From NCBI RefSeq assembly GCF_030268965.1, contig NZ_BSSE01000012.1, positions 1 through 64,000 of the forward strand: a DNA stretch of 64,000 bases. The letters run 5' to 3'. The notes beneath the pieces were generated by a model. That model was given only the letters and a program-made list of their open reading frames with translations, made no database searches and was not told the DNA's origin. Position 1 is the first letter of the stretch. Each line of letters starts with the position of its first letter. Source of the DNA: Microtetraspora sp. NBRC 16547 (GTDB taxonomy: Bacteria > Actinomycetota > Actinomycetes > Streptosporangiales > Streptosporangiaceae). A program made the translations under genes and the position numbers. Shown in pieces: positions 10,930-40,260 of this stretch.

Positions 10930-11388
10930 TTATGCCGGGTCCCGCCGTTCCCACTCACGGGCGATCCGGCGAGCGGTGGCGATGCGTTGCCGGGCGTACT
11001 CGGCCCAGAAGTGCTCCCCGTGCCGATGGCCACTCCCGGCGTAACGCCACTCTTGATGCGTCACTGTCTCCCGCTCCACCACGGCCGGGGGACCGAGCAG
11101 TTCGCATGCTTCCTTGGCGCGATGATCGGCCCGCGTCTGTCGCAGATCGCCGAGCGTGACGGAGTAAAGGCGGCTTTTCGTCGAGAAGTGGCCCCGGTAG
11201 CCGAGCATGTGAGCCCACTGCCGCAACGGCAGGTCCCGATACTGAGGAAGGTCGCCGAGGCCGAAGCAGGTGTAGATCATGCGCCGGGCGTGCTCGGTCA
11301 CCTCCAGCCGGGAGATCTCCCAGGCGTGGCGGATCGGGCGGTCTACGGTTCCCGCCGACTCGGCTTCCTTGGTGGCGTACTTAGCCAC
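10930..11388 (-). pseudogene. RepSA-type replication initiator, C-terminal fragment
   Basis: The 152-residue frame begins V-A-K-Y-A-T-K-E-A-E and continues through R-Q-W-A-H-M-L-G-Y-R-G-H-F-S-T-K-S-R-x-Y-S-V-T-L-G-D-L-R-Q, the conserved end of pSAM2-like replication initiators of actinomycete integrative elements. The family is about 450 residues, so roughly two thirds of the N-terminus is gone. GTG 11388 is probably not a true start. A further remnant of the same family is at 34105-34221. Confidence 0.8.
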
Positions 11389-11392
11389 ATGG

Positions 11393-11632
11393 ATGCGGCA
11401 AGAAGCGGGCAGATGGAAAGATTTGCAACAGCCTCCTCCGGGTCAGTCGCCAGAGGCTCCTGATCTGGAGCAGCGCATAGGACGCCTGCGCGGTGAGGCG
11501 CAGAGCTTCACAGCGGCCGTCGAACGCCGTACGAAGCGAGCCACCGCCGATGCGGCCGAGATCCGGCAGCGCTGGTACCTCCCGGAGGAAGACGGCGGAT
11601 TGCCGCTGTCCACGAAGCGCCGTCGAGCATGA
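11393..11632 (+). CDS. Small hypothetical, low confidence
   Basis: A 79-residue frame: Pro/Gln-rich start, then a charged helical section (L-E-Q-R-I-G-R-L-R-G-E-A and R-T-K-R-A-T-A-D-A-A-E-I-R-Q-R) and a Trp/Tyr/Pro turn. It may be the end of a longer coiled-coil protein cut by rearrangement, since nothing upstream looks like its beginning. No ribosome binding site is convincing. Confidence 0.35.
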   Translation: MRQEAGRWKDLQQPPPGQSPEAPDLEQRIGRLRGEAQSFTAAVERRTKRATADAAEIRQRWYLPEEDGGLPLSTKRRRA

Positions 11633-12827: not shown

Positions 12828-12959
12828 GTGAACCTCTACCACCAGCAGTACCTGTACAAGAACCCGGGCGGCTACTGCGGCATCGGCGGTACGGGTGTCA
12901 ACGCAGGTGACCCTTCGGCTTGGTGCCCGACTGGGCTGACGACCTCTACGGATGAGTAG
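12828..12959 (+). CDS. [10 protein letters not shown]-family micropeptide, copy 1
   Basis: A 43-residue frame from GTG 12828 (TTG 12819 is also in frame): polar/aromatic leader [10 protein letters not shown], core [16 protein letters not shown], then [12 protein letters not shown] and stop. Copy 5 (28860-29003) has the same leader and core with many silent codon differences. Upstream of the GTG, Asp-Leu-Leu-Pro is shared too, but the ATG seen in copy 5 reads GAG here. GGAGG at 12796-12800 is far from either start. Two Cys and many Gly suggest a modified, disulfide or metal-binding peptide; function is unknown. It lies directly behind the PIN toxin. Confidence 0.6.
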
Positions 12960-18345: not shown

Positions 18346-18396
18346 GGCTACTGCGGCGTCGGTGGGACCGGCGTCAAGCTATGTGACCCTTCAGGT
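18346..18396 (+). pseudogene. [10 protein letters not shown]-family micropeptide, decayed copy 2
   Basis: The codons read G-Y-C-G-V-G-G-T-G-V-K-L-C-D-P-S-G. The conserved C-P-T-G-L-T tail and the Y-H-Q-Q-Y-L-Y leader are missing, and the frame then runs through the antitoxin promoter. It resembles copy 3 (shared V-K-L-x-D-P-S) more than copies 1 and 5. It stands just upstream of the Phd/RelE genes while copy 3 stands just downstream, so the two bracket that module as direct repeats. Confidence 0.6.
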
Positions 18397-18772: not shown

Positions 18773-19291
18773 GTGTCCGACGTCGTATTTACTGACGCGG
18801 CCATTGATGATCTCCGCAGAATCGGCCCGGATGCCGTACCCAAGGTCCTTAAGAAGATCCTCCTTCTGCTGGAGAACTCTGAAGCGGGCTACCCCCTGGG
18901 CGGTGAGCTGACCGGGTTCCGCAAGCTCGTTGTGGGGCGGAACACGTGGAGGATTGTTTACCGGATCACTGAGGACAAGACGGTTGAGATCTGTGAGATC
19001 TGGGCGGTCGGGGAGAGGGCCGACGCCGAGGTCTACGCCGAAGCCCAGGCGCGAGTCCGCGCGGCCGGAGGTTCACGGCCCGACGTCGTCCGCCTCGGTG
19101 AAGTCATCGACCGTCTGGGTGCTTTCACCGATCACATCCTCATCGATGAGATGCCGGTGCGCGAGCCGGTGCCCGACTGGCTTGCCAATCGATTGATCTA
19201 CACAGTCGGCATGGCTCGGGAGGATGTGGCGGCACTCGACCTGGAAGAGGCCGTCGATCTTTGGGCGGAGTACCGCTCAAAGTCCCGCTAG
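18773..19291 (+). CDS. RelE/ParE-fold toxin with C-terminal extension
   Basis: A 172-residue protein that starts with GTG 18773. Residues 1-90 have the RelE/ParE pattern: V-V-F-T-D-A-A-I-D-D-L-R-R-I-G, L-T-G-F-R-K-L-V-V-G, W-R-I-V-Y-R-I and V-E-I-C-E-I-W-A-V-G-E-R. RelE relatives cleave mRNA on the ribosome. Typical members have ~85-100 residues; this one carries ~80 more (R-L-G-E-V-I-D-R-L onward) of unknown role, perhaps binding the antitoxin. Micropeptide copy 3 starts 28 bp after its stop. Confidence 0.85.
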   Translation: MSDVVFTDAAIDDLRRIGPDAVPKVLKKILLLLENSEAGYPLGGELTGFRKLVVGRNTWRIVYRITEDKTVEICEIWAVGERADAEVYAEAQARVRAAGGSRPDVVRLGEVIDRLGAFTDHILIDEMPVREPVPDWLANRLIYTVGMAREDVAALDLEEAVDLWAEYRSKSR

Positions 19292-19318: not shown

Positions 19319-19426
19319 GTGCGCCGTCCGGTAAAGGGCTACTGCGGGATCGGTGGCACCAGCGTCAAGCTAAGTGACCCTTCGGCATGTCCCCCGACGG
19401 GGCTGACGACCTCTTCGGAGGAGTAG
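19319..19426 (+). CDS. [10 protein letters not shown]-family micropeptide, copy 3
   Basis: A 35-residue frame from GTG 19319: a short basic start (R-R-P-V-K), then [29 protein letters not shown]. The core and the C-P…G-L-T-T-S tail match copy 1, but the aromatic Y-H-Q-Q-Y-L-Y leader is replaced. No ribosome binding site is clear. It follows the RelE-like toxin, as copy 1 follows the PIN toxin and copy 5 the toxin at 28511. Expression and function are unknown. Confidence 0.5.
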   Translation: MRRPVKGYCGIGGTSVKLSDPSACPPTGLTTSSEE

Positions 19427-27934: not shown

Positions 27935-27977
27935 GACCTGCGGTAACTGATCGATCCTGGCCGTTGGTCGCCCGGCT
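27935..27977. repeat. 43-bp direct repeat, left copy of toxin-antitoxin cassette
   Basis: The sequence beginning GACCTGCGGTAACTGATCGA matches 29003-29045 at 40 of 43 positions, in the same orientation. The two copies enclose about 1 kb with the antitoxin, the toxin and micropeptide copy 5. They could be recombination ends of a cassette. Confidence 0.8.
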
Positions 27978-28043: not shown

Positions 28044-28514
28044 ATGAGCGCGAGCCATGCAGAGTCGGTGACGTTCTCGGACTTGTCGAGGAACCCTCGA
28101 GCGGTCGCGGAGCGTGCGACACGTCTGGGTCGGGTGCGTGTCACTCATCGGGATGCACCGGACTTCTATCTGACGGCTGCGGATCGCGAGGAGCAGCGAG
28201 ACCGGACGCTCGCGACGGCGTCCCGCTTGTTCCTTGCGCTCCTCAAACATGATCCGACAGCCAGGACGTTGGCTATCGCGATGCCTGAGGTTTTCCCATG
28301 GGTCCGCCACCTCGCCACGGACGAACTACGGAACTTTACGTTCGAACTGGTCGAGGCTCTGTCCGACGCTGCAGAGTTGGACTTGGACAACAGAGCCGAA
28401 GAAGTGATCGTGGGCTGGCGGGCGACGGCTCGGATCAAGGCGGACCCGGCGGAGTACGCAGACGCGCGTAAGGCTACGAGCGGAGATTTCGGACAGGTTG
28501 AGGTCTCTGTATGA
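28044..28514 (+). CDS. Antitoxin-like protein
   Basis: A 156-residue protein. The first ~50 residues resemble a Phd-like antitoxin DNA-binding part (V-T-F-S-D-L-S-R-N-P-R-A-V-A-E-R-A, then V-R-V-T-H-R-D-A-P-D-F-Y-L). A longer helical, acidic C-terminal region follows. It sits on a palindromic promoter and overlaps the toxin gene by 4 bp (ATGA at 28511-28514). Longer than ordinary Phd proteins (~80-100). Confidence 0.75.
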   Translation: MSASHAESVTFSDLSRNPRAVAERATRLGRVRVTHRDAPDFYLTAADREEQRDRTLATASRLFLALLKHDPTARTLAIAMPEVFPWVRHLATDELRNFTFELVEALSDAAELDLDNRAEEVIVGWRATARIKADPAEYADARKATSGDFGQVEVSV

Positions 28515-28867: not shown

Positions 28868-29003
28868 TCCGTTGCTTGCCGATCTATTGCCCAAAGTGAA
28901 TCGCTACCACCAGCAGTACTTGTACCGGAACCGGGGCGGCTACTGCGGCATAGGTGGCACTGGTGTCTCCTGCCCGGTCGGCCTCACGTCCGGCGAGGCG
29001 TAG
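28860..29003 (+). CDS. [10 protein letters not shown]-family micropeptide, copy 5 (best preserved)
   Basis: A 47-residue frame with an ATG at 28860: [14 protein letters not shown], then [10 protein letters not shown], then [22 protein letters not shown]. Compared with copy 1 it lacks the eight residues N-A-G-D-P-S-A-W before the second Cys. Its ATG overlaps the toxin stop (ATGCATGA), so translation may be coupled to the toxin frame. An acidic/hydrophobic leader plus Gly/Cys core resembles a precursor peptide or small metal/disulfide peptide; no modifying enzyme is certain nearby. Confidence 0.6.
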
Positions 29004-29045
29004 ACCTGCGGCAACTGATCGATCCTGGCCCTTGGTCGTCCGGCT
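29003..29045. repeat. 43-bp direct repeat, right copy
   Basis: Partner of 27935-27977. It begins on the last base of the peptide's stop codon, so the cassette boundary coincides with the gene end. Confidence 0.8.
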
Positions 29046-29203: not shown

Positions 29204-31078
29204 TCAGCGGCCATCGGGCCGGAAACCGGGCACGGGGATGTGCAGAGGCGGGAGATCGGGAGGGGCAGGAGAGGCGAAGGCGTCCGTCAGCATCACCGAG
29301 ACCGTGTACAGGTGCCAGAGGACGTCCATCCGAGATTCCGGCAGCCGCATCACGCCGGCCGCGTCGACGATGCGCTCGAGCCCGTCTGCCCTCAGTGCTC
29401 CACGCGCGTCGGCGATGTCCGCGTGCATCAGGCCGGTCAGTTCCCGTGAGGGCTTCGTGCGCCAGTTCCAGGGCTTGTTGGCGGGGCCGAAGGCGATGGC
29501 CTGCGACGCGACGGCCTCCGAAGGGCGGCCGAGGTTGGGCAACCGGAGCCGGAGCCGGTCCAGCAGGGTGCGGTCGGAGGATTCGGCCGTGAACCGCCAT
29601 GGGCGGCCCTCGATGGGGATGTCACGCAACTGGGGCGCGAAAGCGCCGATCACGCCGTGGATGAGCGCTTCGGAGCGCCGCCACAGCGGGTCCACGCTGA
29701 GAGCGGTCCGGACGACCAGGTTGTCGAGGAACGGCGGGACGGGGTTTTGGCCGCGCAGCAACGATGCACGGGACGCGGCATGCCAGCGGCCCACGCGGTA
29801 CGCCAGATACAAGTGGTCGAGGGCTCCCGCGCCGTCCCCCCGGCAGCGTTCTCGCCACGGGGACGCCAGGGCATGGGCATGCTCCTTGGCCTCCTTGGTC
29901 AGCAGGTCGGCGTTCTTACCGAAAAGGCCGTCGACCCGGCGCATGATGGCCTTGGCGTCCAGGTCGGCCTGGTTGTGCAGGAAGCCGCCACGCAGGATCT
30001 CCCCGCCGTGGCCGGACATTCGCGGCGTGGGGTCGAACCGTCCGCTGCCGGGGGTGTTCTCGTAGGCCGACATCATGCCTTCGCAGGCGAACAGCACGTT
30101 GTGGCTGCGAACGCGGGGGTGCGGGACGATCAGCTCCGCGCCGCTCTCGGACCGTTTCGGCCGGGCGACGTTGTGCCGGACGCCGAGGGCCTCCGCGACA
30201 CGCCCGGCGAGCACCACGTCGGGGTTGTCGTCGTGCCCCGAGGTCGCCGTCACGAACGGGATGTCCGCCTTGTACAGCAGCGCGGCGAGGAGACGGCTGT
30301 CGCGCCCGCCGGTGAGCGACAGCCGTACCGGCTCTGCGGTGTTCCGCAGCGGTCGTACCGCGGCGACCAGCGCGTCGGCGAGCTCGTCGATCTGGGCGCG
30401 CGTCCCGCGCCTGGAGGTCGGCGTCGCGCGCGCCTCCGGAAGCGGGGTCGCGGTGATGACACGGCGGCCGGCGGTGATCTTGATCTCGGCGGCCGGTGGC
30501 AATGCGCTGACCCCGTGAAACGGTGTCTCGTCGGAGAGGAAGTACCCGGCCCGCACCATCGACTCCAGGGCGGGAAGGTCCCAGACGATCTCGGGTCGGC
30601 TCGATGACGTCCCGGCCGCCCTGGCGACGAGGTGGACGAGCAGCGCGCGGCTGCCGACGACGTGGACGTTCGAGGTCTCGGCGTAGAAGACGGGGCATGC
30701 CCGGGTGAGCCCCGTGGCCGCGCTCACCTCTTCCTCGCCGGCGCGGAAGATCGAGAAGACACCGCCGGTGCGAGCGGCGGTCTCTCCCAGCCGGGGAGCG
30801 GCGAGCAGCCGATCCACCTCGGCCGGTTCGGCCAGATGCCCGGTAAGGCCCGCCACCCGGCCGCTGCCCGAGCACATGATCGGTGACCCGTGCCCCTCTG
30901 GTTCGTTGGACCAGGAGAGCAGCGCCGTGTCACCGGCGGTGGACCGCCATTCGCGTGCGGTCACGGTCGCGGCCGGCACCGGGAAGGCGCGCGGGATCGT
31001 CCGGCGTGCCGCGTCGAGCGCCACGAGCGGCAGCGGGACACCCGCGCGCTTGGCCGTGATCACCAGGTGAACGCGCAA
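29204..31078 (-). CDS. Asparagine-synthetase-like amidotransferase domain protein, orphan
   Basis: A 624-residue protein (TTG start 31078). The N-terminal ~170 residues have the fold pattern of a class-II glutaminase domain (G-G-V-F-S-I-F, then R-A-C-P-V-F-Y-A-E) but no catalytic Cys at position 2, so it probably cannot use glutamine. The PPi-loop reads S-L-T-G-G-R-D-S-R near residue 255 in place of S-G-G-x-D-S, then S-G-H-D-D-N-P-D. It should adenylate a carboxylate and form an amide. Size and missing Cys recall lactam/lasso-type cyclases, but no precursor, protease or PqqD-like gene is seen beside it. Substrate unknown. Confidence 0.8.
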   Translation of the reverse strand: MRVHLVITAKRAGVPLPLVALDAARRTIPRAFPVPAATVTAREWRSTAGDTALLSWSNEPEGHGSPIMCSGSGRVAGLTGHLAEPAEVDRLLAAPRLGETAARTGGVFSIFRAGEEEVSAATGLTRACPVFYAETSNVHVVGSRALLVHLVARAAGTSSSRPEIVWDLPALESMVRAGYFLSDETPFHGVSALPPAAEIKITAGRRVITATPLPEARATPTSRRGTRAQIDELADALVAAVRPLRNTAEPVRLSLTGGRDSRLLAALLYKADIPFVTATSGHDDNPDVVLAGRVAEALGVRHNVARPKRSESGAELIVPHPRVRSHNVLFACEGMMSAYENTPGSGRFDPTPRMSGHGGEILRGGFLHNQADLDAKAIMRRVDGLFGKNADLLTKEAKEHAHALASPWRERCRGDGAGALDHLYLAYRVGRWHAASRASLLRGQNPVPPFLDNLVVRTALSVDPLWRRSEALIHGVIGAFAPQLRDIPIEGRPWRFTAESSDRTLLDRLRLRLPNLGRPSEAVASQAIAFGPANKPWNWRTKPSRELTGLMHADIADARGALRADGLERIVDAAGVMRLPESRMDVLWHLYTVSVMLTDAFASPAPPDLPPLHIPVPGFRPDGR

Positions 31079-31388
31079 CGCGACCTCCCCACCCGGTGGG
31101 TCCGTCCGTAGGCATGCGGGGCGGCTGCGTTCGGTGGGGCGGTCATACGGTGGGTGTCCCTTCGATGGCTTACACCTCTACTCCGCCGATGCCCGCGTTT
31201 GTTTTCACGGTGTGAGGACGAACGGGGGCAGAACGAAGGAGATGACGATGCCGCCACCGGCCGGCGTGAACGCCCACCAGACCAGCGCATCCGCCTGGAC
31301 CGTCGGCTAGGACCGTGATCAGTGGCCTGAGAACGGTGTCCCAGCGGCGGGTGTGAAAGCAGAATGCCCCATCGGTTGAGTAAGGGGT
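31079..31388. other. Divergent control region, no clear gene
   Basis: This ~310-bp gap lies between the asparagine-synthetase-like gene (minus) and the ECF sigma gene (plus). It contains only very short frames, for example a 28-codon minus frame that overlaps the head of 31078 and a 20-codon plus frame from ATG 31246 with AAGGAG upstream. None has support beyond its start signals. Confidence 0.4.
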
Positions 31389-40188: not shown

Positions 40189-40260
40189 GGCGGCTACTGC
40201 GGCACCGGCAGCACCAACGTCAAGCTGGGTGAATGCGCGCGAGGTTCCGGGACTTGTGCT
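40189..40260 (+). pseudogene. [10 protein letters not shown]-family micropeptide, decayed copy 4
   Basis: Codons read G-G-Y-C-G-T-G-S-T-N-V-K-L-G-E-C-A-R-G-S-G-T-C. The G-Y-C-G and V-K-L parts are kept, but the rest has diverged and the usual stop is gone; the frame runs on to 40368. It lies 20 bp beyond the MBL-fold gene, not behind a toxin. Confidence 0.5.

Follow-up and report, generated by a model that had tools for sequence, protein, structure and literature searches.

A stand-alone asparagine synthetase-fold protein of Microtetraspora, probably a glutamine-independent amide ligase, beside a remnant msrA 3'-end copy

Among the products of enzymes built on the asparagine synthetase (AS) fold are beta-lactams, lasso rings, hydroxamates and peptide nitriles. 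Since the fold hosts so many chemistries, a conserved AS-like clade present in multiple copies may hide yet another way of forming amides. In E. coli AsnB, Lys449 of the WRQK motif has a catalytic role and Asp351 is presumably a metal-binding residue, while in the carbapenam synthetase CarA we take the Tyr of the GYGSD stretch to be the Tyr of the Tyr-Glu dyad. PesC is reported to turn the C-terminus of a peptide into a nitrile, a precedent for unexpected chemistry on the AS fold (PMC13060819). SaHAT, a close homologue of the trichostatin-forming hydroxyamidotransferase TsnB9, is reported to activate a free carboxylate with ATP (PMC13418202).

The AS-like gene considered here lies in the window, i.e., the whole stretch of 64,000 nucleotides of Microtetraspora sp. 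NBRC 16547 that was analysed (Table 1). That it is a real gene, as the first-pass annotation had supposed, follows from its open reading frame, a Pfam Asn_synthase match over residues 232-467 (4.7e-7, 30.2 bits against a cut-off of 21), homologues in other genomes and a dN/dS below 1. The latter amounts to 0.32-0.39 against five close homologues and to 0.60 against a sixth, more distant one, by the Nei-Gojobori method, which is rough for GC-rich genes.

Table 1. Positions of the AS-like gene, its motifs, its upstream block and the msrA 3'-end copies within the window.
Feature	Position	Strand	Basis
Stand-alone AS-like protein, 624 aa	29204..31078	-	Open reading frame and translation; TTG start, GGGGAGG ribosome-binding site just upstream
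PPi-loop motif S-L-T-G-G-R-D-S-R, residues 254-262	30293..30319	-	Aligned to E. coli AsnB SGGLDS (hhalign)
SGHGGE motif, residues 355-360	29999..30016	-	hhalign to AsnB SGEGSDE; HMMER alignment to CarA GYGSD
WRF motif, residues 494-496	29591..29599	-	AsnB/CarA counterpart WR(Q/K)K; alignment weak there
Conserved noncoding block (GGTGTAAGCCATCGAAGGGACACC and flanks)	31143..31235	-	Aligned upstream regions of close homologues
"Peptide copy 5", an msrA 3'-end copy, MsrA residue 189 to stop	28905..29003	+	tblastn, 91% identity, E 1.35e-16 against own MsrA
msrA 3'-end copy, MsrA residues 189-217	12837-12944	+	72% identity
Shorter msrA 3'-end copy	19337-19411	+	Match to own MsrA
Shorter msrA 3'-end copy	18346-18375	+	Match to own MsrA
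Degenerate msrA 3'-end copy; with copy 5 bounds the interval containing the AS-like gene	40189..40221	+	23.1 bits

Residue 2 is Arg in the window protein and in every one of the 77 homologue loci whose start could be read (six of the 83 loci examined have no start at the aligned position), and Tyr in the distant relative L049. The first-pass annotation was therefore right that the N-terminal Cys is absent and that the protein is not an ordinary glutamine-dependent Asn synthetase, all the more so as it reaches 21.7 bits with TIGR01536, the AsnB family, against a cut-off of 267.1. Its statement that the PPi loop is altered stands as far as the reading of SLTGGRDSR goes; the change is mild, since TGGRDS differs from the SGGxDS of AsnB by Ser to Thr and seven of the 83 loci carry SGG. 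The form LTGGRD(S/T)R is found in 75 of the 83 loci, a count biased by the retrieval of 80 of them by patterns of which one is this same loop; the other eight comprise six with LSGGRDSR, L153 with LSGGRDGR and L147 with LTGGRDPR. As some members carry SGG, family and AS cannot be told apart by the loop alone.

In a homologue alignment that holds 20 of the 27 readable homologues (the row of L048 being without its N-terminus), T256, G257, G258, D260, R262 and E360 show no variation in any of the 20 rows. By hhalign, E360 falls at the position of AsnB Asp351 and H357 at that of AsnB Glu348. In the HMMER alignment H357 faces the Tyr of CarA GYGSD, and His, Gln or Ser occupies this place across the aligned family. 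The residue that follows WRF is not Lys in any of the 74 loci showing the motif; nine of the 83 show no visible motif, and the alignment is weak in this region, which hhalign places otherwise. The structure prediction that the first-pass annotation had proposed, computed from the 20-row alignment, gave a mean pLDDT of 88.1 and a pTM of 0.90. The model reproduces the two-domain AS fold, with an Ntn and an ATP-pyrophosphatase domain, and its N-terminal part resembles the Ntn hydrolase EgtC with a Z of 15.8 (VIA-align, run over the candidates of Foldseek).

We attribute to the gene a stand-alone, glutaminase-dead enzyme of the AS fold that would carry out the ATP- and Mg2+-dependent adenylation of a glycan or small-molecule carboxylate and convert it to an amide, its supposed peptide neighbour being an msrA scar of the surrounding island; we put the probability of this reading at roughly 0.6. 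Lacking the glutaminase Cys, the protein would not use glutamine in the usual way. It would bind ATP and Mg2+, for which the loop Asp and a carboxylate at the AsnB Asp351 position are retained, adenylate the carboxylate and then join it to ammonia or to an amine. As polysaccharide cassettes harbour several of the closest relatives whose context could be read, we infer that the substrate would be the carboxylate of a surface glycan or of a small molecule and not a ribosomal peptide. In terms of function, an ATP-dependent, glutamine-independent amide ligase is the most probable, with both catalytic activity and its chemistry presumed.

The protein could also be inactive or use another chemistry, because the Lys after WR seems to be absent and the AsnB Glu348 position is taken by His, Gln, Ser or similar residues. 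In its strongest form this would make it a non-catalytic pseudoenzyme, the AS fold being retained for binding or regulation. Arg2 in place of the Cys, the His at the Glu348 position and the consistent lack of Lys after WRF are what such a protein might display, as is the loss of the loop Ser/Thr after the Asp in two members (GGRDPR in L147, GGRDGR in L153). However, the residues on the ATP/Mg side, i.e., TGG.D and E360, are invariant in the 20 rows and a pure binding protein need not keep them, so that we regard a pseudoenzyme as unlikely.

Of 100 genomes searched, among them that of the window, 25 have a family match with an E of 1e-3 or better, in some cases a short or incomplete one. The genome of the window holds three copies of the family (contigs C12, C6 and C28) and further Asn_synthase genes at three places, two of them with 341 and 317 bits and the third in two pieces of 143 and 123 bits. 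A named search with three peptide patterns confirmed 104 relatives among 199 matches; the 83 homologue loci comprise the best 80 of these 104, the window and two paralogues from its genome, and a few paralogues share a genome. The relatives belong to Microtetraspora, Nonomuraea, Streptosporangium, Sphaerisporangium, Actinomadura, Nocardiopsis-like and similar genera, which we take to form one order. Across the class, 51 of 296 genomes match, nine of them at 390 bits or more; eight of these nine fall in the taxonomic family of the window, and outside that family genome G206 has two copies (399 and 393 bits). Remnants of a family member lie in short pieces at 7303-7827 of L052 (genome G007, contig C11), and the same genome carries a 634-aa copy on contig C26.

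Two trees, both of the quick kind, keep the window family apart from ordinary Asn synthetases and from NF033561-type cyclases. In the tree of 55 rows, the family and LTGGxDSR AS-like proteins of other actinobacteria share one side of a branch with an SH-aLRT of 98, a side that also takes in two long-branched rows. The branch that unites the family with its LTGG relatives attains an SH-aLRT of 100 in a tree of 51 rows, from which another four rows (OTH), including long-branched ones, were dropped. Loci left out of the 55-row tree were L078-L082, L164, L171, L178-L182 and L187 (partial, lacking a frame that could be read, belonging to the family or not selected) as well as L195-L203, L205, L210-L214 and L217-L223 (already represented, unreadable, too short, or not chosen).

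The genes around the family were called by our own script, which misses some genes and called the family gene itself in 79 of the 83 loci (L100, L119, L122 and L158 being missed). In 37 of the 79 the upstream neighbour of the family gene is divergent and the downstream one convergent, and in 34 of these 37 the opposed neighbours are less than 350 nt away upstream and less than 200 nt downstream; a further arrangement, with an upstream gene in the same direction at gaps from 17 nt, is found in 24 of the 79. No neighbour is common to the whole family among the 83 loci. The most frequent one is a divergent VWA-domain gene (31 of 83, the window not among them), and a type III PKS gene stands downstream on the opposite strand at 17 loci. 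Depending on the group, the neighbours of closer homologues include gyrase A, SPFH, S49 peptidase, GlgB, an Lrp/AsnC regulator, an aminotransferase, the VWA protein, the type III PKS and an acyltransferase. The DNA likeness between the window and G002, a genome of the same genus, spans the gene and about 137 bp upstream; matches to other genomes of the genus cover little besides the gene, and the genes to its right do not lie alongside it there. Because the neighbours vary and DNA likeness barely exceeds the gene, the latter mostly behaves as a stand-alone unit. Nevertheless, given the 24 same-direction upstream genes and the VWA-domain gene shared by 31 loci, certain subgroups may have partners of their own.

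In L097 (6129-7595) and similar loci, the VWA-domain gene that stands before the AS-like gene is YfbK-like. A reading of the locus as a defence system was rejected, the sole PADLOC match around the gene being Cas56g at 0.034.

Among the relatives, L228 adjoins an ACP-like protein, for which no ACP family exceeds its cut-off, as well as a decarboxylase and a ligase that surpass the cut-offs of TIGR03099 and TIGR03098, respectively; by eye, the gene order at L229 is the same. Flippase, glycosyltransferase, aminotransferase or UDP-GlcNAc 2-epimerase genes occur in the stretches around L228, L229, L230 and L048, and no evident polysaccharide cassette was seen by eye at L225, L226 or L227. Apart from L048-L050 (L048 and L049 at 31-32% identity), these cassette relatives score just 91-115 bits to the family. 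No closer homologue was seen in a polysaccharide cassette, and none of the genes called around the window gene belongs to a polysaccharide or exosortase-type cassette. As the cassette relatives are distant, they provide a hint, not a result, as regards the window gene.

The AS-like proteins at L228 (6610-11494) and L229 (4388-9316), from other actinobacteria, have the loop LTGGQDSR and lie beside an exosortase A-type cassette ligase and decarboxylase. At L225 (3533-8086, genome G206), the family member is preceded by four related proteins, each of some 200 aa, that seem to be secreted and share a TWRH.D..GD stretch; the one of the four that was searched has no Pfam match.

The first-pass annotation had also proposed that the enzyme acts together with a family of small Cys/Gly peptides, one copy of which (copy 5) converges on it about 200 bp from its stop codon. 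The distance is right, 201 bp separating the copy from the enzyme, and the peptide gene is in fact a copy of the 3' end of msrA, identical at 91% to the MsrA of the same genome. The latter matches Pfam PMSR at 1.3e-63, and the GYCGIGGT motif of the supposed peptides is the C-terminus of a full-length MsrA in 10 of 12 stretches outside the window, 11 of which come from relatives and one from contig C6 of the own genome. Extra copies of the motif follow msrA on the same strand in several of these 12. Within the window, the four best copies score 70.1, 58.9, 27.7 and 26.9 bits against a maximum of 24.3 for shuffled tails (200 trials), and the fifth, the degenerate one, lies within chance at this level; its DNA has a 42-nt match (93%) at a scar in genome G003. 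The DNA likeness of copy 5 extends beyond its stop codon into the 3' flank of msrA in three relatives, not in the own genome. Same-strand 3'-end copies are seen in the window, after msrA on contig C6 of the same strain and in the relatives L233, L234, L236 and L239.

In L233 a serine recombinase with Resolvase and Recombinase domains is encoded some 75 bp away from a copy, in L240 at a distance of about 5 kb, and genes for ParE-type toxins precede copies in L234, L236 and the window. The copies are probably attachment-site scars of serine-recombinase elements that have accreted at a hot spot at the msrA 3' end, a site that the recombinases would use, and the AS-like gene is best read as lying in an msrA-linked island. 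Toxin-antitoxin systems may be a common cargo of the intervals between scars. None of the papers listed in the literature searched dealt with the msrA 3' end as an attB site for a Streptomyces integrase, which is no proof that it is unpublished. A mobile-element scar can thus pose as a family of small peptides, as the repeated msrA 3' end, in frame in its best copies, imitates a conserved Cys/Gly peptide, and the scar array may even be a better lead than the AS-like enzyme.

Several further features accompany the scars in the window. Remnants of a serine recombinase on the plus strand at 11310-11620, which correspond to portions of the L233 recombinase with 96% and 56% identity, lie shortly before the 12837 scar. 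A ParE-type toxin gene (18773-19291) and a gene that resembles Phd/YefM and DUF6247 below the cut-off (28044-28511), both on the plus strand, are likewise found shortly before scars. A direct repeat of 43 nt (93%) at 27935-27977 and 29003-29045 resembles the sequence after the msrA stop codon in relatives; its left copy, which has no msrA coding part, may be a half scar.

Since the neighbouring "peptide gene" is a leftover copy of the msrA end, it is unlikely that the AS-like enzyme and this neighbour work together. No msrA scar was found beside the other 82 homologue loci in the flanks examined, mostly 8 kb a side, and in the nine other genomes that possess both enzyme and motif, the nearest pair is either split between two contigs or separated by no less than 159 kb. 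Among 100 genomes, 10 have both, 15 the enzyme only, 15 the motif only and 60 neither (p 0.044); within the taxonomic family the corresponding numbers are 10, 12, 11 and 28, and the association is not significant (p 0.14). Even this weak association hardly argues for a peptide pathway, the motif being MsrA itself in most stretches examined. The link of the enzyme to the Cys/Gly peptides is accordingly abandoned. As for the observation that the first-pass annotation had named as speaking against it, namely homologues consistently tied to another pathway and without peptide neighbours, peptide neighbours were indeed absent; close homologues are tied to no single pathway, and only some distant ones to polysaccharide cassettes.

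Upstream of the gene, the conserved noncoding block includes a GGTGT/ACACC inverted repeat, is common to several genera and is perhaps a promoter or a 5' leader. Its core is unique in the genome even with up to 3 mismatches allowed. A regulon sharing this element was rejected, the single genomic site being the gene's own, and so was an RNA structure, for which 11 predicted pairs showed no compensatory change. Nor could a conserved small ORF beside the gene be established, the all-against-all search of small ORFs, in limited scans, yielding mainly low-complexity GC-rich matches; the 20-aa upstream ORF MPPPAGVNAHQTSASAWTVG (31248-31310, plus strand) has no counterpart in the small-ORF lists of seven other loci. 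An upstream ORF that overlaps the start of the gene and begins with MTAPP or similar is in the same frame in all eight close loci with an upstream ATG, of nine examined, and in a scan confined to that frame an ATG ORF was present in 13 of 15 loci. Its frame is kept, its sequence is not: the substitutions are mostly non-synonymous and without codon periodicity, for which reason a coding constraint was rejected.

The conserved frame of this ORF is one of the points in favour of another reading, that of a RiPP-type cyclase or isopeptide synthetase similar to those of lasso systems, acting on the neighbouring peptides or on one encoded elsewhere; the first-pass annotation had named lactams and isopeptides as frequent products of such enzymes. 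The best curated match of the protein is the macrolactam cyclase family NF033561, yet with 41.8 bits against a cut-off of 300, and the host genome has one marginal PqqD match (5.5e-4). Moreover, AS-like RiPP enzymes such as PesC, TsrC and ScdTA exist outside lasso clusters (PMC13060819). However, the overlapping ORF has no codon periodicity, the neighbouring copies are msrA scars, and at 34 of 79 loci the spaces beside the gene are tight for a peptide gene, if wide enough for a very short one. A tree joining the family and the NF033561-type cyclases in one clade was rejected (p-AU 4.9e-5, quick tree of 51 rows, with a grouping named only after the first tree), and PF13471 had no match at E 1e-3 or better in the 151 contigs of the host genome. 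We take PF13471 to be the leader peptidase of lasso systems, and its absence together with the tree disfavours a lasso or isopeptide role, which we consider quite improbable.

An ammonia-dependent amidating enzyme of the AS-B fold that yields the simple primary amide of a metabolite would fit the retained fold and ATP site, and PesC, like canonical AS, is reported to accept ammonia instead of glutamine (PMC13060819), but nothing ties the gene to a particular acid and the other Asn_synthase genes of the genome probably cover asparagine synthesis, so that there is little to be said for it.

We return to the glutamine-independent amide ligase as the preferred reading. A bolder version of it, which we offer tentatively and would not bet on, is that the family constitutes a new class centred on the Streptosporangiales: stand-alone ligases of polysaccharide-cassette ancestry, which would have left any operon and multiplied to up to three copies per genome, and that would couple an amine other than ammonia to the carboxylate of a surface glycan or another compound. 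No description of the clade was found among the papers listed in the literature searched, which does not prove that it is unpublished.

Among the known systems, the structure that matches best across both domains is TsnB9 (7ylz), with Z 22.6, 503 aligned residues and an identity of 12%; the likeness is one of fold. TsnB9 is reported to act together with TsnB6 and TsnB7 from one cassette, whereas the window gene stands alone. The fold is likewise similar to beta-lactam synthetase (1jgt, Z 20.4) and to CarA (1q15, Z 19.6), and CarA is matched by the family profile over profile positions 82-362 (E 0.0028). In contrast to CarA, the window protein has H357 where the GYGSD Tyr would be, and the Lys after WR seems to be missing in the loci showing WRF; no antibiotic cluster was recognised around the window gene. 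AsnB (1ct9) shares the two-domain fold (Z 20.4, 431 aligned residues) and has a similar PPi loop, where the window protein has Thr for Ser, and a Glu stands at the position of its Asp351, while the Cys at residue 2 is gone; by sequence, the best PDB profile match is human AS (1.2e-6). The albusnodin/ikarugamycin-type macrolactam cyclases of NF033561, for all that they are the best-scoring NCBIfam family, fall below their cut-off and form a separate clade, and the amidotransferase of XrtA/PEP-CTERM polysaccharide systems (TIGR03108) is more remote still in its score, with 16.1 bits against a cut-off of 816.9. The LTGGxDSR AS-like proteins L228-L230 and L048-L050 differ from the window gene in that they adjoin ligase, decarboxylase, ACP-like, flippase or glycosyltransferase genes; they have the loop LTGG.DSR of the window family, and L228, L229, L230, L048 and L049 (L050 was not placed) lie on the same side of the tree.
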